A DNA stretch of 64,000 nucleotides. It comes from Salinicola acroporae (lineage in GTDB: Bacteria; Pseudomonadota; Gammaproteobacteria; Pseudomonadales; Halomonadaceae). The position numbers and the translations under genes are program-made. Below are positions 33,612 through 50,853 of the stretch, in pieces. The stretch is taken from positions 186,001 to 250,000 of the forward strand of contig NZ_PZJW01000007.1 of NCBI RefSeq assembly GCF_003206615.1, in the 5' to 3' direction. Below the pieces are notes generated by a model. It ran no database searches and was not told the origin of the DNA. It worked only from the letters and a program-made list of their open reading frames with translations. How positions within the stretch are numbered: position 1 is the stretch's first letter; the number at the start of each line of letters is the position of its first letter.

Positions 33612-35147
33612 ATGACAGCGACCGCGTCTCGCGACGCCGCTCGTCCGCGGCTGTCCATCCGACTGTTGAACGCCATCGAGCGTTTCGGCAACCGGCTTCC
33701 CGATCCCTTCATGATCTTCGTCCTGCTGGCTGCCGCCGTGCTGGTGGCATCGGTACTGTTCGCCGTCGCCGGCGCCACCGTCGAGCATCCCGGCAGTGGC
33801 GAGGTGGAAGCGATTCGAAGCCTGGTCTCGGCGCCGGGTATCCAGTTCATTCTCGACTCGATGCTCGATAACTTCACCGGTTTCGCGCCGCTTGGCCTGG
33901 TGCTGTCGATGATGCTGGGGATCGGTCTGGCCGAGAAACTGGGACTGCTGGAGACCCTGGTACGCCACACCATTCTGTCGGCACCCAAGCGACTGGTGAC
34001 CTACACCGTCGCTTTCACCGGCATCATGATGAACGTCGCTTCCGACGCCTCGCTGATCCTGCTGCCGCCGTTGGCGGCGATGGTCTACCACTCACTGGGC
34101 CGCCACCCGATCGCCGGCCTGGCGCTCGGTTTCGCCAGCGCCGGCGCGGGGTTCACCGCCAACCTGTTGATCGTCGGTACCGACGCGTTGCTGTCGGGCA
34201 TCTCCACCGAGGCGGCTCGCATCGTCAGTCCCGACATGACGGTGACCCCGGTGGACAACTGGTACTTCAACTGCGTCTCCGTCTTCGTGCTCACCATCGT
34301 GGCCGCCATCGTCACCGAGCGGGTCATCGAGCCGCGCCTCGGCAGCTACCGAGGCGACGTCGAGCAGGTCGAGAGCAGCGAACCGCCGAACGCCCGCCGC
34401 GGCCTTCGCAACGCCGGCATCGCCGCGCTGGTGTACATCGCCGCCATCGCCACGCTGCTGTTCTGGCCAGACTCGCCGCTGCGCGGCCCGGACGGCAGCC
34501 TGATTCCGTCGCCGTTTCTCAGCGGCATCATCCCGATCATCCTGTTCTTCTTCATCACGGTCAGCGTGACCTGGGGCGTCACCGTGGGTCGCATCAAGCG
34601 CTCGCGCGACGTATCCGAGAACATGGCCGAGGCGATGCGCGACCTGGGCAGCTATATCGTGCTGATCTTCGCCGCCTCGCAGTTCATCGCCTGGTTCAAC
34701 TGGACGCATATCGGTACCTGGATCGCGGTCAACGGCGCCGATCTGCTGACCGCGATGGACTTCACCGGGTTCCCGGTCATCCTCTGCTACATCGTCTTCA
34801 CCGCCTGCATGAACCTGCTGATCTTCAGCGGCTCGGCGAAGTGGGCACTGGAAGCCCCGGTGTTCGTGCCGATGTTCATGCAGCTCGGCTACCACCCGGC
34901 CTTCGTCCAGGTCGCCTATCGCATCGCCGACTCCTCGACCAACATCATCTCGCCGCTCAATCCCTACATGATCGTGGTGCTCACCTTCATCCGGAAATAC
35001 GACAAGAACGCCGGCCTCGGCACGCTGATGTCGCTGATGCTGCCCTACACCCTGGCATTTCTGGGGATCTGGATCCTGTTGCTGACGGCGTTCTACCTGC
35101 TGGGACTTCCCTACGGTCCGGGTATCACCACCTACTTGCCGTCCTGA
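33612..35147 (+). CDS. abgT: p-Aminobenzoyl-glutamate transporter AbgT
   Basis: A 511-aa AbgT-family ion-coupled carrier that imports the folate breakdown product p-aminobenzoyl-glutamate; some relatives export sulfonamides. Family marks are NRLPDPFMIFVLLAAAVL near the N-terminus, FTGFAPLGLVLSMMLGIGLA, NVASDASLILLPPLAAMVY, AGAGFTANLLIVGTDALLSG, and QVAYRIADSSTNIISPLNPY near the end. Around eleven to twelve helices are visible. AGGAG precedes the ATG. It leads abgT-abgA-abgB, divergent from abgR. Confidence 0.96.
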   Translation: MTATASRDAARPRLSIRLLNAIERFGNRLPDPFMIFVLLAAAVLVASVLFAVAGATVEHPGSGEVEAIRSLVSAPGIQFILDSMLDNFTGFAPLGLVLSMMLGIGLAEKLGLLETLVRHTILSAPKRLVTYTVAFTGIMMNVASDASLILLPPLAAMVYHSLGRHPIAGLALGFASAGAGFTANLLIVGTDALLSGISTEAARIVSPDMTVTPVDNWYFNCVSVFVLTIVAAIVTERVIEPRLGSYRGDVEQVESSEPPNARRGLRNAGIAALVYIAAIATLLFWPDSPLRGPDGSLIPSPFLSGIIPIILFFFITVSVTWGVTVGRIKRSRDVSENMAEAMRDLGSYIVLIFAASQFIAWFNWTHIGTWIAVNGADLLTAMDFTGFPVILCYIVFTACMNLLIFSGSAKWALEAPVFVPMFMQLGYHPAFVQVAYRIADSSTNIISPLNPYMIVVLTFIRKYDKNAGLGTLMSLMLPYTLAFLGIWILLLTAFYLLGLPYGPGITTYLPS

Positions 35148-35207
35148 CGCCGAGGGACGGGGCGGGAGACACGGCATCAAGACATCCAACAGGCGGAGAG
35201 CGACACC

Positions 35208-36551
35208 ATGAGTACCGTTACCGAATTCGAGCTGGCCCCCGCGATCGAAGCGCTGAGACCGCAGCTGAAAGCGTGGCGACGGGATTTCCACCATCACGCC
35301 GAGTCCGGCTGGGTCGAGTTTCGAACCGCCTCGATCGTTGCCGAGGAGCTCGAACGGCTGGGCTACGACGTCAGTGTCGGCCGCGAGGTGATCGACGCCG
35401 ACAGCCGCATGGGCGTGCCCGAACCCGAAGTGCTGGCCCAGGCGCTGGAGCGCGCCCGCGACCAGGGCGCCGTGGCGCGCTGGCTGCCCGCGCTTGCCGG
35501 CGGCTATACCGGCGTTGTCGCCAATCTGGAGACCGGCCGACCGGGGCCGGTGCTCGCCTATCGCGTCGATCTCGACGCGCTCGACCTGCAGGAATCCGGC
35601 GACGGCCATCACCGCCCGGCCCGAGAGGGTTTCGCTTCCTGCAACGCCGGCATGATGCACGCCTGCGGCCACGATGGTCATACCACCATCGGGCTGGGTC
35701 TGGCGCGTCTGTTCATCGAGCTCAAGGCACAGTTGAGCGGCCGGATCAAACTGATCTTCCAGCCTGCCGAGGAGGGCGTGCGCGGCGCCCGATCGATGGT
35801 CGAAGCGGGCGTGCTCGACGATGTCGACCTGTTCATCGCCACTCACATCGGTACCGGCGTGGCCAAGGGAACGGTCGTCTGTGGTCATAACGGCTATCTC
35901 GCCACCACCAAGCTCGATGTCACCTTCACCGGCGTGCCGGCCCACGCCGGCGCCAACCCGGAAAGCGGCAACAACGCCCTGCTGGCCGCCGCCCAGGCCG
36001 CCCTCGGGCTACACGCGATCCCCCGTCACAGCGCCGGCGCCTCGCGCATCAACGTCGGCGTACTCAGCGCCGGCAGCGGTCGCAATGTGGTACCGGGCAC
36101 GGCCACGCTCAAGCTCGAGACCCGGGGCGAGACCAGCGAGATCGACGAGGAAATGCAGCGCCGAGCGCTGGCCGTGCTGCGCGGCGCGGCGGCGATGCAG
36201 GGCGTCGAGATGGCGTACCGACTTGCCGGCGAAGCGCGCAACTGCGAACCGAGCCCGGCGCTGGTCGATTTCATCCACTCGCACATCGCTGGCCTTCCCG
36301 GGATCGACAACGTGGTCGCGACCGAAAATCGCCCTTCCGGCTCCGAGGACGCCACCACCATGATGCAGCGCGTGCGGGAACGCGGCGGGCTGGCGACCTA
36401 CATGGTGTTCGGCACCGAACTGGCCGCCGGCCACCACCATCAATGCTTCGATTTCGACGAGGACGTACTGCCGGTGGCCATCCACACCCTGGCCTATCTG
36501 GCCCTGCAGGCAGATGCCCCGGCGCTTCGCCGCCATTCCGAGAAGAGCTGA
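35208..36551 (+). CDS. abgA: p-Aminobenzoyl-glutamate hydrolase subunit A
   Basis: A 447-aa M20D-type metallopeptidase. With AbgB it forms a heterodimer that splits p-aminobenzoyl-glutamate into p-aminobenzoate and glutamate. The metal site includes HACGHDGHTTIGLGLARL and the catalytic Glu-Glu in QPAEEGVRGARSMVEAG, and the dimerisation lid domain contains VPAHAGANPESGNNALLAA. The C-terminal ligand lies in GHHHQCFDFDED. The N-terminal LRPQLKAWRRDFHHHAESGW is typical of AbgA. It follows abgT by 60 bp and abgB begins 14 bp after it. Confidence 0.95.
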   Translation: MSTVTEFELAPAIEALRPQLKAWRRDFHHHAESGWVEFRTASIVAEELERLGYDVSVGREVIDADSRMGVPEPEVLAQALERARDQGAVARWLPALAGGYTGVVANLETGRPGPVLAYRVDLDALDLQESGDGHHRPAREGFASCNAGMMHACGHDGHTTIGLGLARLFIELKAQLSGRIKLIFQPAEEGVRGARSMVEAGVLDDVDLFIATHIGTGVAKGTVVCGHNGYLATTKLDVTFTGVPAHAGANPESGNNALLAAAQAALGLHAIPRHSAGASRINVGVLSAGSGRNVVPGTATLKLETRGETSEIDEEMQRRALAVLRGAAAMQGVEMAYRLAGEARNCEPSPALVDFIHSHIAGLPGIDNVVATENRPSGSEDATTMMQRVRERGGLATYMVFGTELAAGHHHQCFDFDEDVLPVAIHTLAYLALQADAPALRRHSEKS

Positions 36552-36565
36552 AGAGAGGTAGCTTC

Positions 36566-38029
36566 ATGGACGCAACCGTGACCGACGCCACCACCCGGCA
36601 ACTCGACACCCTGATCGAGAACAAGCGCGATCGCTTCATCGATCATGCCAACCAGGTATGGGATCTGGCCGAGACCCGGTTCGAGGAAACCCGCTCTGCG
36701 GCGACGCTGAGCGCGGCGCTGGAAGCCGAGGGCTTTCGCGTCGAGCGCGGCATCGCCGGCATCGAGACCGCCTTTGTCGCCAGCTACGGCACCGGCAAGC
36801 CGGTCATCGCGCTACTCGGCGAATACGATGCCCTGGCCGGGCTCAGCCAGCGCGGCGAAGCCAGCCGGGCCGAGCCTCTGATCGACAACGGCAACGGTCA
36901 TGGCTGCGGCCACAACCTGCTCGGTGTCGCCGCACTGGCCGGCGCGGTCGGCGTGCGTGACTACATGGCCGACAACGCGCTCTCCGGCACCGTGCGCTTC
37001 TACGGCTGCCCCGGCGAAGAGGGTGGCTCCGGCAAGACCTTCATGGTGCGCGAGGGCGTGTTCGACGATGTCGACGCCGCGCTCACCTGGCATCCACAGG
37101 CGTTCAACGCCATCTTCTCGACGCCGACGCTGGCCAATATCCAGGCCTACTTCCGGTTCAAGGGCACGTCCGCCCACGCCGCCAACTCGCCGCATCTCGG
37201 GCGTAGCGCGCTGGACGCCGTGGAACTGATGAACGTCGGCGCCAACTATCTGCGCGAGCACATCGTGCCCGACGCGCGCCTGCACTACTCGATCACTCGC
37301 ACCGGCGGCGCCTCCCCCAATGTCGTCCAGGCGGACGCCGAGGTGCTCTACCTGATGCGCGCCCGGCGCATGAGCGATGTTCAGGCGATCTTCGAACGGA
37401 TCCAGGAAATCGCCGAGGGCGCAGCGCTGATGACCGGCACCCAGGTCGAGATGACGTTCGACAAGGCCTGCTCGGGCTACCGCCCCAATCGCACCCTGGA
37501 GCGGCTGATGCAGTCGCGGTTCGAGGCGTTCGGCCCACCGCGTCACGATCCCGAAGAGATCGCCTACGGGGAGCGCATCAAGGCAACGGTCAGCGACGAC
37601 GACCTGCGCACCACCTACGCCAACATCATCGCGACCGGGGGTAAGGCTGGCGAGGCCTACGTCGAAGGGCTCGCCGACAGGGCGCTGGTCGACGACCTCG
37701 CCCCGTACAGTGCCAGCGAGGCGCTCATGTACGGCTCCACCGATGTCGGCGACGTCAGTTGGGTCGTGCCGACCGCCCAGTGCTACGTCAACTGCTTCGC
37801 CCTCGGCACACCGCTGCACACTTGGCAGGTGGTCGCCCAAGGTCGCAGCTCGCTGGGCCACAAGGGCATGCTCCAGGCAGCCAAGGTGATGGCCGGCACC
37901 GCCGTCGCGCTCATGCAGGATCCGGCTACCCTGGCCGAGGCCCGGGCGGAGTTGGACACGGCGACCCGACGCGAGCCCTATCGCTGTCCCATTCCGGACG
38001 ACGTCGCGCCCTCGCCCCTGAAGGGATGA
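36566..38029 (+). CDS. abgB: p-Aminobenzoyl-glutamate hydrolase subunit B
   Basis: A 487-aa M20 peptidase, partner of AbgA. Signatures are LLGEYDALAGLSQ, GHGCGHNLLGVAALAGAVGV, FYGCPGEEGGSGKTFMVREG and the lid segment FRFKGTSAHAANSPHLGRSA, and near the end DVGDVSWVVPTAQCYVNC. ATG 36566 with GAGAGG upstream starts 14 bases after the abgA stop; the frame reading back into abgA is not the gene. The pathway recovers p-aminobenzoate and glutamate from folate debris. A hairpin at 38066-38085 may end the operon. Confidence 0.95.
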   Translation: MDATVTDATTRQLDTLIENKRDRFIDHANQVWDLAETRFEETRSAATLSAALEAEGFRVERGIAGIETAFVASYGTGKPVIALLGEYDALAGLSQRGEASRAEPLIDNGNGHGCGHNLLGVAALAGAVGVRDYMADNALSGTVRFYGCPGEEGGSGKTFMVREGVFDDVDAALTWHPQAFNAIFSTPTLANIQAYFRFKGTSAHAANSPHLGRSALDAVELMNVGANYLREHIVPDARLHYSITRTGGASPNVVQADAEVLYLMRARRMSDVQAIFERIQEIAEGAALMTGTQVEMTFDKACSGYRPNRTLERLMQSRFEAFGPPRHDPEEIAYGERIKATVSDDDLRTTYANIIATGGKAGEAYVEGLADRALVDDLAPYSASEALMYGSTDVGDVSWVVPTAQCYVNCFALGTPLHTWQVVAQGRSSLGHKGMLQAAKVMAGTAVALMQDPATLAEARAELDTATRREPYRCPIPDDVAPSPLKG

Positions 38030-38065
38030 CGGAGAACGACTCGGCTCGTGATGGCGGAGCAAGCC

Positions 38066-38085
38066 GGGAGCGCACGCGCGCTCCC
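38066..38085 (+). terminator. Hairpin after abgB
   Basis: GGGAGCGC (38066-38073), loop ACGC, and GCGCTCCC (38078-38085), 36 bases after the abgB stop. The following ACCCCTTG is poor in T, so it is a possible rather than certain terminator. The 527 bases between abgB and eboD hold this hairpin and repeat element II copy 2; no gene was recognised, and 38406-38556 should contain the eboD promoter. Confidence 0.5.
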
Positions 38086-38170
38086 ACCCCTTGCGGACCT
38101 GCTCGAAGATTCCCGACACGTCGAAAACTCGATACGCCGCCAGGATCTGTACGCTAGATTCACTCGGTCA

Positions 38171-38405
38171 TGACGGCGCCGTTTCTTTTGTGAGGCTAGG
38201 CACAAGCCTCGGGTGATGGTGGCTCCAGGCGCTTGGTTCTTCACAACGCCTCGCGCAGGAACCGACCGGTTCCTTCGAGTTGCGCCTCAAATGCGCCCGG
38301 GCTTCGTTGCAGAGCTGAACACGGGAACAACCCTTAACGGCATCCCACGCCTTGCCTGCCCCCACGCCGCAACGCGGTTCGCGGCGTATTTTGTGAACAG
38401 ACCCT
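38171..38405. repeat. Dispersed element II, copy 2 (longer form)
   Basis: Homologous to 28557-28699 in its core (GACGGCGCC, TGTGAGGC, GCGCTTGG, AACGCCTCGCG, about 38171-38255) and in its right end (GTATTTTGTGAACAGACCCT at 38386-38405). Between them lies about 126 bp absent from copy 1, containing GGAACCGACCGGTTCC, a perfect-armed palindrome. The left terminal repeat of copy 1 was not found here. Confidence 0.75.
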
Positions 38406-38556
38406 AAACCTTCGTAGCAGAAGAACCATTCTTGTCGCCCGCCCCATCCAAGCCCGAAGCTAATCCGGTGCAACCCGAACCAGAGGCCAAGCGCGATCGC
38501 TCATGATGAAGTGGTCCGCTTTTTCATTTTTGGACCCTTACGCAGGCGATAACCCC

Positions 38557-39849
38557 ATGAACCGGCCCGCATTATCGTTTTCGATCGATGGCGACTTCGC
38601 CCTCGACTCGCCGCCCCGCACGCCGCACTGGCCGCCCGTGCAACCTCTCGAGGCCAACCGGAACGCAGCATCGTCGGACATTCACTGGCAACGCTTTACC
38701 GTCGCCTACGACTATCCCGTGGCCTTCACCCGGGAGATCTTCTCCCTCGACAACGCCCTGCTGGCCGATGTCATCTCGCGCCGCGAGCCCTGCAAGACCC
38801 ATCGCTGCCTGGTCTACGTCGATAGCGGTGTGGCGGCGACCTGGCCGGATCTGAACCGACGTATCGAGGCCTACTTCACCGCCCATGCGAACCGGCTGAC
38901 ACTGCTGGCGGCGCCGATTACCGTGCCGGGCGGCGAGTCCGTGAAGGCCAATCTGGACACCATCGACGACGTGCTGGAGGGCATCCGGCGCTACGGTGTC
39001 GATCGCCACGCCTACGTGATCGTCATCGGTGGCGGCGCGGTCCTGGACGCCCTCGGGCTTGCCGCGGCCATGGGTCACCGCGGCGTCCGCCTGATCAGGC
39101 TGCCCACCACCGTGCTGTCGCAGAACGACAGCGGCGTCGGGGTCAAGAATGCGGTCAACTTCAAGGGCTACAAGAACTTCATCGGCACCTTCGCCCCGCC
39201 CTGGGCGGTGCTCAACGACTTCGACTTCCTGAGCACGCTCTCGCGGCGCGACCGGCTGGCAGGCATCTCCGAAGCGATCAAGGTGGCGCTGATCCGTGAC
39301 GGCGAGTTCTTCGACTGGCTGGAAGCCAACGCCGACTCGCTGGCCGAGTTCGATCCGCGTACCGAGGAAGTGATGATCCGACGCAGCGCCGAACTGCACA
39401 TGCAGCAGATCGGCCGCGGCGGCGATCCGTTCGAACAGGGTTCGTCGCGGCCGCTGGATTACGGCCACTGGGCGGCTCACAAGCTCGAGGCACTGACCCA
39501 TCACGGCATCGGCCACGGCGAGGCCGTCGCCATCGGCATCGCCCTGGACGCTCGATACTCCGTGCTCACGGGGCTGCTCCCCGCCGGCGCCGAGTGGCGT
39601 ATCGTGTGGCTGCTGAAGCGGCTGGGGCTGCCGGTCTTCCATAGCCAGTTGATGGAGCTCGGCGATGACGGCGACCTGGCCGTCATGGCAGGACTCAAGG
39701 AGTTTCAGCAACATCTCGGCGGTGAGCTGACGATCACGCTGCTGGCTGCGCTGGGCCGTGGACACGACGTCCACGAGATCGATGAAACCACCATGACAGC
39801 CGCGATCGACTGGCTGCGCGAAGAGGCAAACCGTGATGCAGCTGCATGA
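38557..39849 (+). CDS. eboD: EboD: 3-dehydroquinate-synthase-like protein
   Basis: A 430-aa member of the sugar-phosphate cyclase superfamily. The NAD-binding segment IVIGGGAVLDALGLAAAMG, RLPTTVLSQNDSGVGVKNAV, and FAPPWAVLNDFDFL resemble 3-dehydroquinate synthase, and the metal ligands appear kept (Glu in GISEAIKVALIRD, His in LDYGHWAAHKLE, His in GIGHGEAVAIGIAL). It is longer than AroB at the N-terminus. Its place before eboE and eboC marks it as EboD, whose reaction is unknown; it is not expected to be the cell's shikimate enzyme. ATG 38557 was preferred to 38503; the spacing of AGGCGA is loose. The eboE start lies inside its end. Confidence 0.9.
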   Translation: MNRPALSFSIDGDFALDSPPRTPHWPPVQPLEANRNAASSDIHWQRFTVAYDYPVAFTREIFSLDNALLADVISRREPCKTHRCLVYVDSGVAATWPDLNRRIEAYFTAHANRLTLLAAPITVPGGESVKANLDTIDDVLEGIRRYGVDRHAYVIVIGGGAVLDALGLAAAMGHRGVRLIRLPTTVLSQNDSGVGVKNAVNFKGYKNFIGTFAPPWAVLNDFDFLSTLSRRDRLAGISEAIKVALIRDGEFFDWLEANADSLAEFDPRTEEVMIRRSAELHMQQIGRGGDPFEQGSSRPLDYGHWAAHKLEALTHHGIGHGEAVAIGIALDARYSVLTGLLPAGAEWRIVWLLKRLGLPVFHSQLMELGDDGDLAVMAGLKEFQQHLGGELTITLLAALGRGHDVHEIDETTMTAAIDWLREEANRDAAA

Positions 39850-41020
39850 TGATCTGGGCCAACTGACCTACTGTCTCAATATTCACCCGACCCAGTCCTG
39901 GGAGGCGGTGCGTGAGGCGCTGCTCGGACCGGTCAAGCGCGTGCGCCAGAACGTCTGCCCCGAGGCGCCCTTCGGCGTGGGTCTGCGCCTGTCTGCCCAG
40001 GCGCTGGAGGAACTCCGCGCGCCCGAGGCACGGGCCGAGCTCAAGGAGATCCTCGCGCGGGAAAACTATCGCGTGGTGACCATGAACGGGTTTCCGTTCG
40101 GCCCTTTCCACGGCATCCCGGTCAAGCAGGCTGTCTACCAACCCGACTGGAAGCAGCGCGCCCGCCTCGACTACACCTGCTGGCTTGCCGACCTGATGGC
40201 GGAGCTTGGCGTCGCTGGCGACACCCTTAGCCTGAGCACCGTCCCCGGCACCTACAAACCATTGGCCGAGGGGGCCGCGCCGGCGATGGCGGAAAACCTG
40301 CTCAAGGCGGCGGCCCACTGCGTCAAGCTCGCCCGGCAGACCCAGGTCACCATCGCCATCGCGCTGGAGCCCGAGCCGCACTGTTTCCTGGAGACCATCG
40401 ACGAAACCATCGCGTTCTTCCGCGATTATCTCTACTCCGATGCCGCCGTGGCACGCTTGAGCGAGCTGACCGGACTCTCCCCCGAGGCATCGAGAGAGGC
40501 GCTGCCGCGCCATCTCGGCGTCTGCTACGACGTCTGCCATGCCGCCGTCGAGTTCGAGGATCCGGCCGCCAGCATCGAGGCACTGCGCGCCGCCGACGTC
40601 CCGATCCATAAGCTGCAGTTGAGTGCCGCACTTCGCGTTCCACGGATCGACGCGGCGAAGCGCGAGGCCTTGGCACCGTTCTGCGAGCGCACCTACCTGC
40701 ATCAGGTCGTGGTCTCCACCGCAGAGGGACTGGTGCGATACGCGGACCTGCCCGAGGCACTGGCCGATGACGCCAGAACCGATGGTGAAGAGTGGCGCGT
40801 GCACTTTCATGTGCCGATCTTCGTGGACGCCATTGCGCCCTTCGAGACCACCCAGTCGTTCCTGGTCGACATTCTCGCCCTGCATCGCCAGCGACCGATC
40901 TCTCAGCATCTGGAAGTGGAGACCTACACATGGCAGGTATTACCGGAGAACCTGCGCACGGAGAGCGTGGAAGCGGCCATATCCCGCGAGCTGACCTGGG
41001 TCGAACGACAGCTGGCGTGA
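39836..41020 (+). CDS. eboE: EboE: metabolite traffic protein (TIM-barrel fold)
   Basis: A 394-aa protein with the look of the sugar-phosphate isomerase/epimerase barrel. It contains LTYCLNIHPTQSWEAV at the start, a segment FPFGPFHGIPVKQAVYQPDW, IALEPEPHCFLETIDE with possible metal-binding Glu, LGVCYDVCHAAVEFED with Asp and His, and VHFHVPIFVDAI. These acid and His positions match metal sites of the isomerase family, but the substrate is unknown. The ATG at 39836 (or GTG 39833) lies inside the end of eboD, a 14-base overlap. EboE is a core gene of the ebo system. Confidence 0.93.
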   Translation: MQLHDDLGQLTYCLNIHPTQSWEAVREALLGPVKRVRQNVCPEAPFGVGLRLSAQALEELRAPEARAELKEILARENYRVVTMNGFPFGPFHGIPVKQAVYQPDWKQRARLDYTCWLADLMAELGVAGDTLSLSTVPGTYKPLAEGAAPAMAENLLKAAAHCVKLARQTQVTIAIALEPEPHCFLETIDETIAFFRDYLYSDAAVARLSELTGLSPEASREALPRHLGVCYDVCHAAVEFEDPAASIEALRAADVPIHKLQLSAALRVPRIDAAKREALAPFCERTYLHQVVVSTAEGLVRYADLPEALADDARTDGEEWRVHFHVPIFVDAIAPFETTQSFLVDILALHRQRPISQHLEVETYTWQVLPENLRTESVEAAISRELTWVERQLA

Positions 41021-41916
41021 CCACGGCGGGGCCCGCAGGGAAGCGGAGCGCCAGGATCTGGCTGGAGCTGGGGCGAGTTTCCAACCTGCCCACGGTCTGG
41101 AGCAACGTGCTGGCCGGCAGCGCCCTGGCGGGCGCCAGTGGCGCCGCGCTGTGGCATACCGCCGGGCTCTGGACGTCGTTGCTGGCACTGACGCTTTTCT
41201 ATCTCGGCGGCATGTACCTCAACGACGCCTGCGATGCCGAGATCGATGCCCGCGAACGTGCCGATCGGCCCATTCCCCGGGGAGACGTCGGCCGCCTGAC
41301 CGTCGCGATGCTCGGCGCAGCGATGCTGACATCGGGAAGCGGCCTGCTGCTTCTGAGCCATCCGCCAGCCGGCATGACCGGCCTGGCGCTGGTTGCCGCG
41401 ATCCTGGGCTATGACTGGTGGCACAAGCGGATCGGCTGGAGCCCGCTGCTGATGGGGGCGTGCCGGCTGTTGACCTACCTCACCGCCGCGCTGATGGTTA
41501 CCGACACCCTCGATACGGCGGTGATCTGGGCTGCCATCGGCCTGGCCTGTCACGTCATTGGCCTGACCTACGCCGCCCGCCAGGAAGCGACCAACCGGCT
41601 GGGCGCCGCCTGGCCGTTGGCGGTACTGTCGGTACCGGTGGCGCTGATGCTGGCCGCCATGCTGACCGGCCCCGAACCGTCGCTGCTGGCGTTGATCCTG
41701 TGGCTCGGCTATCTGATCTGGGGCGCGCGCTGCCTGCTGTGGCTATCTCGACGCGCGGCGGGAGACGTACCACGCGCCGTCGTGGGCCTGATCGCCGCCA
41801 TCTCGCTCTACGACGCCACGCTGATGGCAGCCATGGGCGCCAGCGGAATGGCCTTGCTGGGCGTTCTGGCCTTCGCCGCGACGCTGGTACTGCAACGAGT
41901 GACGTCCGGGACCTGA
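41017..41916 (+). CDS. eboC: EboC: UbiA-like membrane prenyltransferase
   Basis: A 299-aa polytopic protein of the UbiA superfamily with eight or nine helices. The first Mg-diphosphate motif is intact as NDACDAEIDARERADRPIPR (N-D-X2-D-X3-D). The second Asp-rich motif is poorly kept (ILGYDWWHKRIGW). The start is a GTG at 41017 that overlaps the eboE stop as GTGA. In the ebo system EboC may act on or carry a prenylated or hydrophobic intermediate; no substrate is established. A very strong terminator lies 60 bp downstream. Confidence 0.93.
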   Translation: MTTAGPAGKRSARIWLELGRVSNLPTVWSNVLAGSALAGASGAALWHTAGLWTSLLALTLFYLGGMYLNDACDAEIDARERADRPIPRGDVGRLTVAMLGAAMLTSGSGLLLLSHPPAGMTGLALVAAILGYDWWHKRIGWSPLLMGACRLLTYLTAALMVTDTLDTAVIWAAIGLACHVIGLTYAARQEATNRLGAAWPLAVLSVPVALMLAAMLTGPEPSLLALILWLGYLIWGARCLLWLSRRAAGDVPRAVVGLIAAISLYDATLMAAMGASGMALLGVLAFAATLVLQRVTSGT

Positions 41917-41976
41917 TGCGCCGCCCCCCCCGGTGGCGAACGCCGACGTTATCGGTTTCCGCCTCGCCAGACGCGC

Positions 41977-42018
41977 AAGGCCGGGCCCGCCTCATGGTGA
42001 GGCGGGCCCGGCCTTTTT
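41977..42018. terminator. Strong bidirectional terminator between eboC and eboF
   Basis: An 18-bp perfect stem (41977-41994 with 41998-42015; arms AAGGCCGGGCCCGCCTCA and complement) with loop TGG and a T run on the plus strand ending at 42018. It separates the convergent eboDEC and eboF transcripts. On the minus strand the stem is followed by GCGCGTCTGG, so it acts best for eboC. Confidence 0.93.
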
Positions 42019-42026
42019 ACCCTGCC

Positions 42027-43463
42027 TCAGACGCTGGCATCGTCGACAGCGGTCTCGCGGCTGGCCGTATCGCTCTCCTCGCCTTCGAACACGTGCGCCA
42101 ACACCAGTGCCTTGAACGCCTGCGCCTCGACCGGCCCTGCGGGTAGCAGGCCCGGTTCGGACGAGATCACCAGTGGGCCCTGGTCGGGATCGTCGGTCAG
42201 CCGTCCGTGGGCGCCCTTGACCAGCGCGGTGTCCTTGAGCGAGATGACATCCAGCAGTTGGCGCATCCCCAGCCGCCGCTTGACGAGTCGCCACCCCGCC
42301 GAGAGCTTGGGTGACTTCAGGGCCGGGTCGAAGAACAGCTCCACCGGGTCGTATCCCGGCTTGCGATGAATGTCGACGGTGCGGGCATAGTCCGGCGCCC
42401 GGGCATCATCCAGCCAGTAGTAGTAGCTGAACCAGCGATCCGGTTGGGCGATCGCCACCAGCGCCCCCGAGTTGGGATGATCCAGGCCGTGCTCCCGTTT
42501 CTCGTCCTCGCCCCAGACGGCCTCCACGCCATCCAGACCTTCGAGCAGTGCCTTGACCGCCGGCACCTCCGCCGGATCGCTGACGTAGATGTGCGCCACC
42601 TGATGATCGGCCACCGCGAAGGCGCGCGACGCCCCGGGATCGAGCTGCTCCCGATCCCGTTCTCGGCGGACCGAGACCAGACCGGCCTCGCGCAACGCGC
42701 GATTGATATGAACGGCCTCGCGCACGGGCGTGATCCCGTACTCGGACACCACGATGACCCGTCGTCCCTCCCGATCGGCGGCGTCGATCAACTCGCCGCA
42801 CAGGGCGTCGACGTCCCGGAGATCACGTTGCAACTCGGGATGCGACAGATCCGGTCCCAGGCGCTGGAGGTTGTAGTCCAGGTGCGGCAGATAGGTCAGG
42901 GTCAGCGTGGGATCACGGGTCTCCATGACATGGCGCGTCGCGTCGCTGATCCAGCGGCTCGAGGAAATGTCCGCCATGGGGCCCCAGAAGGTGAACAGCG
43001 GGAACGTTCCCAGCTTGGCGTCGAGCTCGTCATGCAGCTCAGGCGGGTAGGTATAGTGGTCCGGCAGCTTGCGACCGTCGGCGGGATACATCGGCCGAGG
43101 CGTGGCGCTCCAGTCCGCCGTCGAATACATGTTGTACCACCAGAACATCTTGGCGCAGGTAAAGTCGGGATTCTGCCGTTTTCCGGCTTCCCAGATCTTC
43201 TCGCCCGCCACCAGTCGGTTGGACTGGCGCCAGAACCAGACCTCGGAAAGATCCCGGAAATACCAGCCGTTGGCCACGGCACCGTGCCGACCTGGCGGCA
43301 AGCCGGTCATCAATGTCGCCTGGACGCTGCAAGTCACCGCCGGGGTCACGGTATTCAATGGACGCAAACCGCCCCGCTCCGCGAGCCGTTTCAGAGCCGG
43401 TGTATGCTCACCGACCAAGTGGGGCGTCAGCCCGACCACGAGAATTACCAAGGTGTTGTGCAT
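42027..43463 (-). CDS. eboF: EboF-type alkaline phosphatase / nucleotide pyrophosphatase-like protein
   Basis: A 478-aa protein of the alkaline phosphatase superfamily (NPP-like). The nucleophile region NTVTPAVTCSVQATLMTGLP and GRHGAVANGW is clearly NPP-like. Metal positions deviate: LVVGLTP stands where active enzymes have a DG, HLDYNLQRLGP keeps an Asp but shows Gln for His, and VVSEYGIT replaces SDHG. DHPNSGALVAIA keeps a final His. So the catalytic metal site may be altered. ATG 43463 was chosen over TTG 43484. It is divergent from eboA and converges on eboC. The name EboF follows gene neighbourhood and fold. Confidence 0.85.
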   Translation of the reverse strand: MHNTLVILVVGLTPHLVGEHTPALKRLAERGGLRPLNTVTPAVTCSVQATLMTGLPPGRHGAVANGWYFRDLSEVWFWRQSNRLVAGEKIWEAGKRQNPDFTCAKMFWWYNMYSTADWSATPRPMYPADGRKLPDHYTYPPELHDELDAKLGTFPLFTFWGPMADISSSRWISDATRHVMETRDPTLTLTYLPHLDYNLQRLGPDLSHPELQRDLRDVDALCGELIDAADREGRRVIVVSEYGITPVREAVHINRALREAGLVSVRRERDREQLDPGASRAFAVADHQVAHIYVSDPAEVPAVKALLEGLDGVEAVWGEDEKREHGLDHPNSGALVAIAQPDRWFSYYYWLDDARAPDYARTVDIHRKPGYDPVELFFDPALKSPKLSAGWRLVKRRLGMRQLLDVISLKDTALVKGAHGRLTDDPDQGPLVISSEPGLLPAGPVEAQAFKALVLAHVFEGEESDTASRETAVDDASV

Positions 43464-43763
43464 GGCGCCGACCTGCCGATTCAAGCGTGAGGTTTTATCG
43501 TCACGACCTCATCGCAACGATCTGTAAAGACTGCATATCATTTGGGATAAAGAGAGACAATCGGCGCGATGACCAACGCGTGATTTTGAGAAATTATCAC
43601 TAGAAAAGTGAAGATACCGACTCATTATCGAAGCAAAAAACCCATTCGATAAGCGCGCTTCAGCATTGGATCCTGCCCCCTCGACTGGTCAATTAATTGA
43701 GCTTGGGGATTCTTTTGGCGACCCGATAAAGTGGCTTCTGAAATCACTGGCCCGGAAATTTAC
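43464..43763. promoter_or_regulatory. AT-rich divergent promoter region eboF/eboA
   Basis: A 300-base non-coding region much richer in A+T than its surroundings, for example 43535-43740. It contains the dyad GTGAT-N11-ATCAC at 43580-43600 (GTGATTTTGAGAAATTATCAC is 21 bases; outer arms GTGATT and TTATCAC). This matches the outer bases of the abgR/abgT dyad. Both eboF and eboA must start here. No open frame of interest was seen. Confidence 0.65.
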
Positions 43764-44633
43764 ATGTCCGTTACACCATTGAAGCTGCTGAGCGACTGGA
43801 CCTGCCGTCAGGCCCCGGATCAAGCTCGCTGGCTCGTCGGGCAATACGCCTCGCTGGGCCACAGCGGCAACGAGAAGGATCTCCATCTGTTTCTCGGCCT
43901 GGTGCCACGACGCCTCGGCAAGCAGGACCTGATGCTGACTTCACAGGACCTGACGATGGCGAACCAGGCTTATCCGGGCTGGACTCCCGAGGGCTGGAGC
44001 CTCGATGGAGCGGCCCGCATTGCTGCCCTGCTCGCCTTCGAGGGCATCCGCCCGTTTTCGGCCACGTTCCGCGACCTGGTCCGGACCGCCGACGCCCGCG
44101 AGTTGATCACGCTCTATCGGGGACTGGCGCTCTATCCCCGGCCCGAGTCGCTGACAGATGCCGTAGGCGAGGGGCTGCGCTCCAACATGCGCGCGGTATT
44201 CGAATCCATCGTGCATGGCAACCCCTATCCGCGCGACCACTTCGACGAGCATCGCTGGAATCACATGGTGCTCAAGGCGCTGTTCGTCGGTAGCCGACTC
44301 TCCCCCATCGTCGGCCTGGACGCCCGGGTCAACGCAGAGCTGGCCGCGATCCTGCTCGACTACGCCCGGGAACGATGGGCAGCCGGACGCGAGGTGAGCC
44401 CGGAGCTGTGGCGCTGTGTCGGGCCTTTCGCCGAACGCGTTTCGGCCTACGATGCCCTGCAACGGGCCTTGGCGGGTGCGCCGGAAGAGCGGAGTGCGGC
44501 GGTACTGGCACTGCTCGCGGCCGACACCCCTCGCGCCCGGGACCTGCTTCAGACGGTGCCGGATATCACCGCACTGGTCGCGGACGGTCGTCTCGACTGG
44601 AACCACCTCACCCTGAAAAAAGAGGCCGCCTGA
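43764..44633 (+). CDS. eboA: EboA-domain protein
   Basis: A 289-aa all-alpha, soluble protein that matches EboA in size and by segments GHSGNEKDLHLFLGLVPRRL, WSLDGAARIAALLAF and FDEHRWNHMVLKALFVGSRL. No catalytic motif is visible, and the biochemical role of EboA is unknown even in cyanobacteria. ATG 43764 with CGGAAA upstream was chosen over a GTG at 43731. eboB follows after a single base, so the two are cotranscribed and coupled. Confidence 0.92.
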   Translation: MSVTPLKLLSDWTCRQAPDQARWLVGQYASLGHSGNEKDLHLFLGLVPRRLGKQDLMLTSQDLTMANQAYPGWTPEGWSLDGAARIAALLAFEGIRPFSATFRDLVRTADARELITLYRGLALYPRPESLTDAVGEGLRSNMRAVFESIVHGNPYPRDHFDEHRWNHMVLKALFVGSRLSPIVGLDARVNAELAAILLDYARERWAAGREVSPELWRCVGPFAERVSAYDALQRALAGAPEERSAAVLALLAADTPRARDLLQTVPDITALVADGRLDWNHLTLKKEAA

Positions 44634-44634
44634 G

Positions 44635-45555
44635 ATGTTCATCGACCCCCATGCCCACATGGTGTCTCGCACCACCGACGACTACGAGGCCATGGCCGCC
44701 GCCGGCATCGTGGCCCTGGTCGAACCGGCGTTCTGGGTCGGCCAGCCCCGGACCTTCGTCGGTACCTACGTCGACTACCTCTCCTCCCTGGTAGGCTGGG
44801 AGCGTTTTCGCGCCGGCCAGTTCGGCATCCGTCACTACTGCACCATCGGCCTCAACTCGAAGGAGGCCAACAACGAGGCGCTGGCGGAGGGTGTGATGGA
44901 GTGGCTGCCACGGTTCGCCCTCAAGGAGGGCGTCGTCGCGATCGGCGAAATCGGCTATGACGAGCAGACCCCACTCGAGGACAAGTACTTTCGCGCCCAA
45001 CTGGCACTGGCCAAGCAGCTCGAACTGCCGGTGATGGTGCACACGCCGCACCGCGACAAGAAACGCGGCACCTCGCGCTCGATGGACGTCTGCGAGGAGA
45101 TGGGGCTCGATCCCTCGTGGGTGGTCATCGACCACAACAACGAGGAGACCGTACGTGAGACGCTCGATCGCGGCTACTGGGCCGGTTTCTCGATCTACCC
45201 GTCGACCAAGATGGGCAACGCGCGGATGGTCGAGCTGCTCAAACAGTATGGCGGTGACCGGATCATCGTCGACAGCGCCTGCGACTGGGGGATTTCGGAC
45301 TGTCTTGGCGTCCCCAAGACGGCGCGACTGGCACTCGAGTCCGGCATTGACGAGACCGTGGTACGCCAGGTTACCTACGCCAACGCCCTCGCCGTCTACG
45401 GCAAGAGCGGCCAGATGCACGCCGCCGACTGGCTCGACCCCGCGCCTATCGATCAGCGCACGCTATTCGAGGGCAATTCGATCCTGCGAGGCGGTCGCGA
45501 TCCACGGGTCGAGGTAACGGCTGATCGTCGCCGCGACCGGCTACTGATCGAATAG
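44635..45555 (+). CDS. eboB: EboB: TatD-family metal-dependent hydrolase
   Basis: A 306-aa amidohydrolase-fold protein of the TatD family, larger than housekeeping TatD. The metal ligands are all visible: HXH in DPHAHM, Glu in IGEIGYDEQ, His in MVHTPHRD, His in VVIDHNNEE and Asp in IIVDSACDWG. TatD relatives have nuclease or phosphoesterase activity; in the ebo system the substrate is unknown. The ATG begins one base after the eboA stop. This gene closes the cluster. Confidence 0.93.
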   Translation: MFIDPHAHMVSRTTDDYEAMAAAGIVALVEPAFWVGQPRTFVGTYVDYLSSLVGWERFRAGQFGIRHYCTIGLNSKEANNEALAEGVMEWLPRFALKEGVVAIGEIGYDEQTPLEDKYFRAQLALAKQLELPVMVHTPHRDKKRGTSRSMDVCEEMGLDPSWVVIDHNNEETVRETLDRGYWAGFSIYPSTKMGNARMVELLKQYGGDRIIVDSACDWGISDCLGVPKTARLALESGIDETVVRQVTYANALAVYGKSGQMHAADWLDPAPIDQRTLFEGNSILRGGRDPRVEVTADRRRDRLLIE

Positions 45556-47968: not shown

Positions 47969-48071
47969 GGACGACTCCTCGGTATCAGTACCCACAGCTT
48001 AGGGGGACCGGCGCCCGATGATCAGCGAATTCTTTCCCCGCGTTCGTTTCACGAAGTCGTCGGGACCGGGC

Positions 48072-49058
48072 TCAGGACACGCCCGCTCCCCGGGTGAGAC
48101 GTTGCCAGTTGCCATGGGCTAAAGCCGCCTTGGCACTCCCCTCCAGATCGCACCGCTCGAGGAAAGCCCGCGCATCGCCGCCCGCTCGATATTGATAAGG
48201 AAAGTCCGTGGAGAACAGCAGTCGTTCATGACCGACCACCGCCGCCGCCCGAGCCAGATAGTGTGGCAGGAACATGCCGCTGGCGGTGACGTAGAGATTG
48301 GCACGACAGTAGTCGGCAATGGGTCGGGAGAGCGACGCCACACGATCCATGGCGGCGAGTCGCTCGATATAGAACAGGACCATCTCACCCCAGTGGCCCA
48401 GAATCACCTGCAATCGCGGCAAACGGTCGAACGCTCCCGCCAGTACCAGCCGTAGAAACTGAAGACCGGCGTCATAATGCCAACCGAGGCCATAGGTCGC
48501 CAAAGCCGTATCGAGCGCCGGCGATATCCCATCGTAGTAGGCTTGCCTCACCGCCGGCGGCGGCACACGCGGGTGGAGCAGCACCGGCACGGCCAGACGT
48601 TCCGCCTGGGCGAGGATGGGCATCAGGGCGGGATCGTCCAGATGCCGCGAACCGACCCGTCCACACAGCATCGTACCCTTGAAGCCGAGCTCGCCGATGC
48701 AGCGCTCAAGCTCCAGCGCCGCCGCCTCGGGCTGCGAGACCGGTAGCGTCGCCAGTGCTTGAAAACGCTGCGGATGCCGGGCGACCACCGCCGCCAGTGT
48801 GTCATTGGTGCGCCTGGCGATGTCGACACTCTCTACACCCCGGTCATGCAGTGCCGGCGTGGTCAGCGACAGGACCTGCACGTCCAACCCCGATTCATCC
48901 ATCAGCGCCAGACGCTCATCGGCAAGATTCATCAACCGTCCGTGGCACGCCCCGGCATGCAGTGCCACGCTCGGGTCCGTCCGATCCAGGCCCAGCGAGC
49001 GCCAGGCGCGATCGATCTCCGAGGTCAGGAAGTGCTCTTCGATCCCGATCAGATGCAT
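48072..49058 (-). CDS. Amidohydrolase-2 (ACMSD / resorcylate decarboxylase-like) protein
   Basis: A 328-aa TIM-barrel amidohydrolase of the decarboxylase group. The metal-binding E-X-H appears at the N-terminus (IGIEEHFLT), with HPRVPPPAVRQ, the conserved ILGHWGEMVLFYIERL, and the terminal Asp in FSTDFPYQY. Relatives decarboxylate aromatic acids (gamma-resorcylate, salicylate) or hydrolyse lactones. It is cotranscribed with the SDR gene 10 bp upstream. LysR regulators lie on the other side. An aromatic substrate is inferred from family only. Confidence 0.9.
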   Translation of the reverse strand: MHLIGIEEHFLTSEIDRAWRSLGLDRTDPSVALHAGACHGRLMNLADERLALMDESGLDVQVLSLTTPALHDRGVESVDIARRTNDTLAAVVARHPQRFQALATLPVSQPEAAALELERCIGELGFKGTMLCGRVGSRHLDDPALMPILAQAERLAVPVLLHPRVPPPAVRQAYYDGISPALDTALATYGLGWHYDAGLQFLRLVLAGAFDRLPRLQVILGHWGEMVLFYIERLAAMDRVASLSRPIADYCRANLYVTASGMFLPHYLARAAAVVGHERLLFSTDFPYQYRAGGDARAFLERCDLEGSAKAALAHGNWQRLTRGAGVS

Positions 49059-49068
49059 GACGACAACC

Positions 49069-49797
49069 TCACCACGGCACGATCTTGCCGAAGCGGTCGA
49101 GATACTCGATGCCCGGCCGGCTTCTCTTCTCCAGCAGGACATCGACGATCGCTGGCACCGACTCTTCCATCGTATAGGGCGCGTCATCTCCCCCCAGGTC
49201 GGTACGAATCCAGCCCGGCGCCATCACCAGCACTGCCCGCCCGGTAGCGGCGTGGCGCGCCGCAAAGCTGCGCATGAACATGTTGAGCGCTGCCTTGCTG
49301 CCCCGGTAGAGCTCGCGCATGCCGTTCTCGTTGTTGGCGATGCTGCCCTGCCCGGAAGACATCACACCGATCAGCCCCGCCGCGGGTACCAGATGCTCGA
49401 ACTTCTCGAGCACGCGCATCGGACTGAGCGCGTTGGTGATCATGATCCCGGTGAACTCTTCGGTGGAGATAGTGCCGATGGCCTGATCGGGTTCCCGGTT
49501 GGTGGTCCCGGCATTGACGAAAAGCAGATCGATCGATCGCCCCTCCAGGCGTTGGTACAGCGCATCGATCTGATCCGGATCCGTAACGTCGAGCGTCTCG
49601 ATCTCGACCCGGCCGGGGTGGCCGTCCGCCAGCGTGTGCAACGGCGTCTGCTCGGCACCCGCGCGAACCGTGCCGATGACATTCCAGCCGGTCTCCGGCG
49701 TTTCGCCCCGCGTCAACAGCTCCGCGGCGATGGCATGGCCAAGACCACGCGAGGCGCCCACGATCAGCGCGGTCAGACAATTGGCAGATGTCGTCAT
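49069..49797 (-). CDS. Short-chain dehydrogenase/reductase
   Basis: A 242-aa classical SDR with a Rossmann fold. The dinucleotide motif is IVGASRGLGHAIA, the NAG motif is VNAGTTN, the catalytic Ser is in VMSSGQGS and the active-site pair is in YRGSKAALNMF (Tyr-X3-Lys). MAPGWIRTDLGG is typical. The partner coenzyme cannot be named. ATG 49797 with GAGG upstream is the best start. It is followed by the amidohydrolase and is divergent from the LysR gene at 49933. Confidence 0.92.
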   Translation of the reverse strand: MTTSANCLTALIVGASRGLGHAIAAELLTRGETPETGWNVIGTVRAGAEQTPLHTLADGHPGRVEIETLDVTDPDQIDALYQRLEGRSIDLLFVNAGTTNREPDQAIGTISTEEFTGIMITNALSPMRVLEKFEHLVPAAGLIGVMSSGQGSIANNENGMRELYRGSKAALNMFMRSFAARHAATGRAVLVMAPGWIRTDLGGDDAPYTMEESVPAIVDVLLEKRSRPGIEYLDRFGKIVPW

Positions 49798-49872
49798 GGG
49801 AAGTGACCTCATGGATGATGGGTTCATCTCAAAGGATGGAGGTCAGCATGACAATGCACCAGACGCACAGAA

Positions 49873-49889
49873 TGCACATAATTATTGCA
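49873..49889. promoter_or_regulatory. TGCA-N9-TGCA dyad upstream of the LysR/SDR pair
   Basis: Two TGCA half-sites flank ATAATTAT at the AT-rich centre of the 135-base divergent region between the SDR gene and the LysR gene. The neighbouring words AATGCACC and TTGCACC repeat the motif. It is a candidate LysR site, though TGCA is common. Confidence 0.35.
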
Positions 49890-49932
49890 CCAAACGCTAG
49901 TCCATAAGCAGGATCTCGGTTACCGTGAGTCG

Positions 49933-50853
49933 ATGAACGATATCGATCTGAACCTTCTCATCGCGCTGGATGTGCTGCTGGAAGAGAGCAGCGTGACAGC
50001 GGCCGCGAAGCGGTTGAATCTGAGCGCGTCGGCGATGAGCCGCACGCTCAAGCGTCTGCGCGAGGCGACGGGAGACCCGCTGCTGGTACGGGCGGGACGC
50101 GGGCTGGTACCTACCCCCCACGCGTCCTCACTGCGCGATCGCGTTCATGAACTGGCTCGGGAGTCGCGTTCGGTCCTGCGACCACGCCCACACGACCTCG
50201 ATCTCTCGACACTGGAACGGACGTTCACCCTGCGTACCAACGCGTCGTTCGTCGAACGGTTTTCGGTGCCGCTGGTGAATGCCATTGCGGAAGCCGCGCC
50301 GAGGGTGTGCCTGCGCTTCGTGCCCAAGCCGACCAAGGCGATAGCCCCCCTGCGCGAAGGCCAGCTCGACCTCGAGATCGGGGTCATCGAGACCACCGCG
50401 CCGGAGTTGCTGACGCGGGGGCTATTTCAAGACCGCTTCGTCGGCGTCGCGGGTCAGGGGCACCCGTTGCTCGCCGGTGCCATCACGCCGGAGCGCGTTG
50501 CCGCGTGCCGGCACGTGATGGCGTCTCCCAGCGGCGAATTCACCGGACCGATGGAAAAGGCGTTGAACGCACTCGGCCTCGACCGGGAATTCAGCGTCAT
50601 CGTGCCGGGCTTCTCGGATGCCCTGCGGATCGCTCGCCACACCGATCGAATCACGCTGGTACCGCACTCCTGCCTGATGCCGGGGCGCCTGCATGAAGAT
50701 CAGGAGCCCCTGGTGGCGTTCGAACTCCCCGCGCCGACCGACCCGTTCACGATCTCGGCGCTGTGGCATCCTCGGCTGGGTACCGACCCGGCTCATCGCT
50801 GGTTCCGGGAGCTGGTGATATCGACCTGCCGCGCGGCCTATCGGGAGACTTGA
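49933..50853 (+). CDS. LysR-family transcriptional regulator
   Basis: A 306-aa LysR protein. The HTH is DIDLNLLIALDVLLEESSVT and AAAKRLNLSASAMSRTLKRL. The effector half contains LEIGVIETTAPELLTRGLFQ. It belongs to the NodD-like or aromatics subgroup with an extended C-terminus. ATG 49933 fits; a start at 49885 would add 16 unconserved residues. Divergence from the SDR-amidohydrolase pair suggests it controls them. It converges on the next LysR gene with 14 bp between stops. Confidence 0.92.
   Translation: MNDIDLNLLIALDVLLEESSVTAAAKRLNLSASAMSRTLKRLREATGDPLLVRAGRGLVPTPHASSLRDRVHELARESRSVLRPRPHDLDLSTLERTFTLRTNASFVERFSVPLVNAIAEAAPRVCLRFVPKPTKAIAPLREGQLDLEIGVIETTAPELLTRGLFQDRFVGVAGQGHPLLAGAITPERVAACRHVMASPSGEFTGPMEKALNALGLDREFSVIVPGFSDALRIARHTDRITLVPHSCLMPGRLHEDQEPLVAFELPAPTDPFTISALWHPRLGTDPAHRWFRELVISTCRAAYRET

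Follow-up and report, generated by a model that had tools for sequence, protein, structure and literature searches.

An intact ebo gene cluster in Salinicola acroporae, its relatives and its likely horizontal acquisition

The ebo genes have been described as eboABCDEF clusters in Nostoc punctiforme, other cyanobacteria, Bacteroidetes and eustigmatophyte plastids. In Nostoc they are tied to scytonemin genes, and the phenotypes of ebo deletions in this organism were reported in PMC6282210 (here and below, the papers are cited from partial texts). An earlier note on the DNA analysed here described ebo as known from cyanobacteria and some algal plastids, which made its presence in a heterotrophic gammaproteobacterium seem novel. 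The published record is wider: ebo is known from seven bacterial phyla, in varied orders and sometimes with one reversed gene (Yurchenko 2016, PMC5133447), from a rickettsial symbiont (Yurchenko 2018, PMC6092422) and, as a full ebo cluster, from within the EDB cluster of Pseudomonas fluorescens NZI7 (Klicki 2018, PMC6282210). We analysed the ebo cluster found at positions 38557-45555 of a 64,000-nucleotide stretch of the Salinicola acroporae genome, hereafter the window. The titles and partial abstracts of the open-licence literature that we searched contained no link between ebo and Salinicola.

The Salinicola cluster encodes the same six protein families as the eboABCDEF clusters, in six intact open reading frames (ORFs), but their order and strands differ: eboD-E-C are followed by convergent eboF and then by eboA-B, an arrangement that the earlier note had correctly set apart from the cyanobacterial one. 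Moreover, the EboC proteins of Nostoc and Pontibacter pass the NCBIfam cut-off, whereas that of Salinicola does not. The EDB cluster is also gammaproteobacterial and holds a full ebo cluster, a likeness drawn from the description of Klicki 2018, which gives it further ORFs with signal peptides. The identical order occurs in Sulfitobacter brevis (L086), Roseobacter (L087) and Limibaculum (L091), which are also the nearest outside relatives in our tree. Near ebo, L086 and L087 carry sugar-dehydrogenase-like proteins, cytochromes c, TMEM220 and DedA/VTT proteins, and L091 carries a cytochrome c and a VTT-type ORF about 3 kb away. No such gene surrounds the Salinicola cluster. The features of the locus are as follows.

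38557-39849, plus strand: eboD, sugar-phosphate-cyclase protein like 3-dehydroquinate synthase (DHQS), 430 aa; NF004852, 564 bits, invariant residues
39836-41020, plus strand: eboE, xylose-isomerase-like TIM barrel; NF035939, 434 bits
41017-41916, plus strand: eboC, UbiA-type prenyltransferase, GTG start; PF01040, 67 bits, and NF035940, 108 bits
41977-42015, no strand: terminator hairpin 3' of eboC, in the gap where eboC and eboF converge; 18-bp stem
42027-43463, minus strand: eboF, member of the alkaline phosphatase superfamily whose metal site is altered; PF01663, 223 bits
43464-43763, no strand: divergent intergenic region with probable eboF and eboA promoters; shared boxes
43764-44633, plus strand: eboA, all-helical protein, 289 aa; NF035938, 155 bits
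44635-45555, plus strand: eboB, TatD-like metallohydrolase; PF01026, 62 bits, conserved residues
38030-45545, no strand: block absent from the ebo-negative Salinicola genome G175, all six genes minus the last 10 bp of eboB; blastn

The genes are intact, they co-occur, they are missing as a block from one close relative, and the cluster nests among those of alphaproteobacteria. We propose, with a probability of about 0.65, that ebo came from Roseobacter-type alphaproteobacteria, was kept as a unit, and makes an isoprenoid-linked metabolite that is exported or serves as a carrier.

Family membership and active sites

EboE passes the cut-off of its NCBIfam model (250 bits), and EboA passes that of the domain model NF035938 (50 bits); on the EboA_family model it reaches 216 bits against a cut-off of 320. 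The best NCBIfam match of EboD, NF004852/PRK06203 (cut-off 333 bits), bears the name 3-dehydroquinate synthase at NCBI. On the aroB model EboD scores 214 bits, below the cut-off of 305, and the genome's own AroB, encoded elsewhere, scores 397. These family scores point to a sugar-phosphate cyclase distinct from AroB, in agreement with the distinction drawn by Yurchenko 2016 (PMC5133447). EboB is TatD-like, and EboF, which has no NCBIfam match, belongs to the alkaline phosphatase superfamily by its Pfam score. EboC finds its top NCBIfam match in the EboC model NF035940, far below the cut-off of 250 bits. Seven other proteobacterial EboC proteins, each encoded in an ebo cluster (L046, L060, L067, L071, L078, L087 and L104), score 70-128 bits on this model, compared with 428 bits for Nostoc and 417 for Pontibacter. 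Judged by this gap, proteobacterial EboC is a distant branch from the Nostoc and Bacteroidetes enzymes, and what the model captures seems to be the cyanobacterial/Bacteroidetes branch. The EboC of L067 scores higher on the SCO3242 model than on the NCBIfam EboC model. The Salinicola gene can still be assigned as the EboC of the cluster on its UbiA match in Pfam and on synteny. The six genes and the order given in the earlier note are therefore confirmed by intact ORFs and family matches, EboE and the EboA domain passing their models and EboC and EboA_family falling short of theirs.

We then compared residues across homologues, short fragments being excluded by length limits. D191, K197, K206, N207, E239, D301, H304, H308 and H320 of EboD are invariant in 96/96 aligned sequences; we assume their roles by homology with DHQS. 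Asp301 stands where the aligned DHQS chains carry Asn, and the cyclase 4p53, presumably a valiolone synthase, also has Asp; EboD retains the DHQS-like His308 that is missing in 4p53. The NDxxDxxxD motif of EboC is kept in 89/89 sequences, as are N69, D70, D73, D77, Y132 and R150, with K137 in 88/89. In EboE, numbered from the alternative GTG start at 39833, E179, E181, D233 and H236 occur in 117/117 sequences and H324, H326, E361 and E363 in 114/114; its profile found nothing among the PDB chains up to E 1. EboB keeps H8, E105, H136, H139, H167 and D217 in 89/89 and H6 in all 88 sequences with a residue at that position. The conserved His, Asp and Glu of EboE and EboB would fit metal sites, and the preservation of catalytic residues claimed earlier for EboD and EboB holds throughout. 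EboA is all-helical in its AlphaFold2 model (mean pLDDT 97.5), with R139, K171, R188, E203 and R209 in 81/81 sequences. Its fold search gave no PDB match at E<=0.001, the weak ones including HEAT, PPR and TPR proteins, which neither supports nor rules out the TPR idea of Klicki 2018.

The case of EboF is different, since the two-metal site of NPP and alkaline phosphatases is not preserved. The references for the EboF alignment were NPP (2gsn) and phosphonoacetate hydrolase (1ei6); we assume the NPP numbering and the residue roles (D54, T90, D210, H214, D257, H258 and H363), whose letters agree with the alignment. The position of D54 is V10 in EboF (Val in 88 and Ala in 3 of 91 sequences), that of H214 is Q200 (Gln in 93/93), that of H258 is Y242 (Tyr in 93/93) and that of D257 is E241 (Glu in 90/93, Asp in 3/93). 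By this alignment EboF lacks most of the metal-holding residues usual in its annotated family. It was termed a putative phosphate hydrolase in PMC5133447 and homologous to pyrophosphatases in PMC6282210; searching the main texts of these two papers for active-site and residue terms revealed no such analysis of EboF, and the losses look new among the searchable literature. It is possible, although we favour the opposite, that EboF is still a phosphodiesterase or pyrophosphatase with a re-wired metal site and, following a suggestion of Yurchenko 2016, provides EboD or EboC with a substrate. Indeed, T44 (91/91), D196 (93/93) and H419 (90/90), equivalent to T90, D210 and H363 of NPP, persist, metal binding by E241 is still conceivable, and H366, K368, D372 and E375 are invariant in 45 sequences. 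The NPP fold is also seen in the AlphaFold2 model (Foldseek to 7n1s, E 1.5e-18), whose mean pLDDT is 88, with low values at 362-378, 401-409 and the C-terminus. However, none of the scored sequences retains D54, H214 or H258, and Glu nearly always takes the place of D257.

Distribution and origin

EboE scored above its cut-off in 25/275 Halomonadaceae genomes belonging to 2/24 genera, namely 17/18 Salinicola and 8/14 members of a genus coded g15, and EboA matched the same 25 genomes. Genome-wide co-occurrence was scored for these two proteins; all six genes, in the order of the window, were present in 24/24 fetched Halomonadaceae loci. Rows L083, L084 and L117 duplicated genomes in the set and were dropped. 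Synteny and co-conservation, the points on which the earlier note would check the cluster, thus both hold. In wider samples EboE was found in 7/293 genomes from the order and 15/369 from the class, our own genome being included in each. At L058:11474-14168 (eboF and eboA) and L061:9241-10502 (eboE), the genes are each in two ORFs, through sequencing error or decay.

G175 is the single Salinicola genome without ebo. Its flanks align with ours at 87-91% (blastn, window 30001-52000 against L175), and only some 35 bp occupy the place of window 38030-45545. As the flanks align and this interval is gone, the six genes are absent together, and loss of ebo is the simpler reading. Further along the same alignment, the G175 stretch lacks any counterpart of window 48066-50782 (an amidohydrolase, a short-chain dehydrogenase/reductase and the greater part of a LysR gene), which forms a second presence/absence block near ebo.

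Among 51 six-gene loci from outside the Halomonadaceae, the split order of the window was found in nine (eight alphaproteobacteria and one gammaproteobacterium) and the ABCDEF order in ten. A tree was built from concatenated EboB, EboD, EboE and EboF (69 rows, 15 Halomonadaceae of 84 rows having been thinned beforehand; LG+G4, quick search, midpoint root). The Salinicola and g15 sequences form one clade (support 100), which joins six alphaproteobacteria of the Sulfitobacter/Roseobacter/Limibaculum kind (support 96), and six gammaproteobacteria of the same taxonomic order as the Halomonadaceae are placed elsewhere. With groups picked after viewing the tree, the approximately unbiased (AU) test rejected a single gammaproteobacterial clade (p 7e-74), a grouping of the Halomonadaceae with the six rows of the same order (p 4e-5), and a clade of the 17 alphaproteobacteria without the Halomonadaceae (p 0.002). 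Because the split order is common to Roseobacter-type alphaproteobacteria, which are also the nearest relatives in the tree, horizontal acquisition of ebo by the ancestor of Salinicola and g15 is likely. The split arrangement probably came along with the cluster, since the same order occurs in alphaproteobacterial loci.

Vertical inheritance of a gammaproteobacterial ebo, lost from most Halomonadaceae without any transfer, would account for the order and sequence conserved within Salinicola and g15, and for the GC content of the cluster (0.54-0.70 per 500 bp, mostly about 0.65), which is like that of the adjoining stretches. We consider it improbable, as ebo occurs in so few genera, groups with the six Rhodobacterales-type rows, and is separated by the AU test, on its post hoc groups, both from the same taxonomic order and from a single gammaproteobacterial clade. 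That ebo no longer has a function and is a mere relic or a selfish insertion, as its dispensability in G175 and the broken ORFs of L058 and L061 might suggest, is very hard to reconcile with six intact genes in the window, their presence in nearly all Salinicola and their invariant active-site residues.

Intergenic regions and neighbouring genes

The starts of eboD (38557), eboF (43463) and eboA (43764) agree with the ORF lengths of relatives. The eboE start lies within the end of eboD, eboC begins with a GTG that overlaps the stop of eboE, and 1 bp separates eboA from eboB; to judge by these overlaps and this spacing, DEC and AB appear to form two coupled units. The earlier note placed a strong terminator and a divergent promoter between them. 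The hairpin at 41977-42015 is stable (-46.9 kcal/mol, z -4.7, 0/200 shuffles as good), which fits the first claim, but it is absent from the list of a simple pattern scan. The 300-bp gap between eboF and eboA lies within the lowest-GC stretch (0.54) of 36-48 kb, and the same kind of scan found no consensus sigma-70 site in it. When the gap was aligned with those of 16 other Salinicola loci (17 sequences), shared boxes appeared at 43531-43540, 43558-43563, 43694-43701 and 43725-43732: at the aligned place stand CTGCATA.CA in 13/17 gaps, CAATCG in 15/17, TAATTGAG in 13/17 and GATA[AGC]AGT in 15/17. These boxes are probably the divergent eboF and eboA promoters; because the aligned sequences are relatives, their sharing is support rather than proof.

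Neighbours of ebo were surveyed by clustering in 93 non-Halomonadaceae loci, with Pfam run on representatives and counts given raw. Sugar-dehydrogenase-like proteins of the PF07995 type lie near ebo in 19/93 loci, cytochromes c in 14 and both in 12, and many of the PF07995-type proteins have signal-like N-termini as judged by eye. In three of the 19 (L071, L072 and L081) the ORF is very long (840-1768 aa), and the one scanned, L072, is multidomain; these three were excluded from the clade comparison. Each of the remaining 16 loci contributes a protein to one of two clades. L087 and L128 hold two different PF07995-type proteins beside one ebo cluster. L094:19533-20654, which aligned with none of the other members below 700 aa, was dropped as a probable clustering artefact. 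TMEM220 lies within 200 bp of ebo in eight loci, and a NUDIX protein resembling isopentenyl diphosphate (IPP) isomerase within 27 bp of ebo genes in five; in four loci, all alphaproteobacterial, eboB has a VTT/DedA protein no more than 33 bp away. Three NUDIX neighbours were scored, and the IPP isomerase cut-off is reached by one of them and missed by two; the DedA neighbour is weakly like UptA (28 of 300 bits). The Pfam scan of 148 neighbour ORFs (4 of 152 excluded) counted 11 TMEM220, 8 cytochrome CBB3, 7 PF07995, 6 NUDIX and 4 VTT. These recurrent neighbours look new among the searchable literature.

None of the six neighbour groups has a member among the 24 Halomonadaceae loci. A search of the 32 Salinicola and g15 genomes (18 + 14) for the two types of ebo-linked sugar dehydrogenase gave best E values of 2.8e-13 (L082 query, 26-31% identity) and 7.7e-11 (L077 query), whereas the L077 protein finds the gene of L082 in G647 at 5e-52; such dehydrogenases were therefore rejected for these genera. 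The general family PF07995, present in 245/275 genomes, is uninformative. Upstream of eboD, window 33612-38029 encodes an AbgT-type transporter followed by two M20 peptidases, which we take to resemble the p-aminobenzoyl-glutamate (abg) genes of E. coli. They were discarded as ebo partners: abgT is beside ebo in 7/16 Salinicola loci, and the genes persist in G175 without ebo.

Proposed chemistry

A small molecule linked to an isoprenoid is the most likely product of the ebo core. After its probable acquisition from a Roseobacter-type alphaproteobacterial source by an ancestor of Salinicola and g15, the cluster would work as follows. EboD would cyclise a sugar phosphate to a cyclitol, perhaps from sedoheptulose 7-phosphate as proposed by Yurchenko 2016. 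The membrane protein EboC would prenylate an acceptor, EboE and EboB would modify intermediates, and EboA and EboF would bind or organise them, EboF not acting as a normal two-metal phosphodiesterase. The isoprenoid-linked product might carry, or be, a small protective metabolite bound for the periplasm or the cell surface, by analogy with the export proposed for scytonemin precursors in Nostoc and for the nematode-repelling EDB cluster. The prenylation role is proposed because of the IPP-isomerase-like neighbours and because Bacteroidetes EboC homologues farnesylate quinolines (PMC9235831), and the periplasmic role because of the Nostoc deletion phenotypes.

Several points weigh against this proposal. 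The Salinicola EboC is far below its cut-off and not close kin of the farnesylating or Nostoc enzymes; as a consequence, acceptor and prenyl donor may differ. The EboD site combines cyclase and DHQS features, under a best model named 3-dehydroquinate synthase. According to the review PMC9655573, Zhou 2022 attributes the EDB phenotype to tryptophan-derived indoles, whereas an isoprenoid-cyclitol model does not. A scan of nine flanking proteins (33.6-50.9 kb) brought no recognisable secondary-metabolite or partner gene, and within that span the absence of product genes stated by the earlier note stands. Finally, as the tree is a quick LG+G4 search with a midpoint root, donor and recipient could be reversed, or a third lineage could be the source.

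A broader scheme strikes us as unlikely: ebo would be a portable machine for a polyprenyl-linked cyclitol, a periplasmic lipid carrier or redox partner, with EboF as a non-hydrolytic binder. Instead of a scytonemin accessory, it would be a module found bare in Salinicola and accompanied elsewhere by apparently secreted dehydrogenases and by cytochromes c, some loci adding an IPP isomerase or a DedA-type protein.

Altogether, naming by the NCBIfam EboC model likely misses the EboC of such proteobacterial clusters, and the substrates found for Bacteroidetes EboC may not apply to the proteobacterial enzymes. The residue changes in EboF are a caution against its usual annotation as a phosphatase or phosphodiesterase. 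In Salinicola, a bare six-gene cluster together with a congener that lacks exactly that block makes the chemistry of ebo directly testable.

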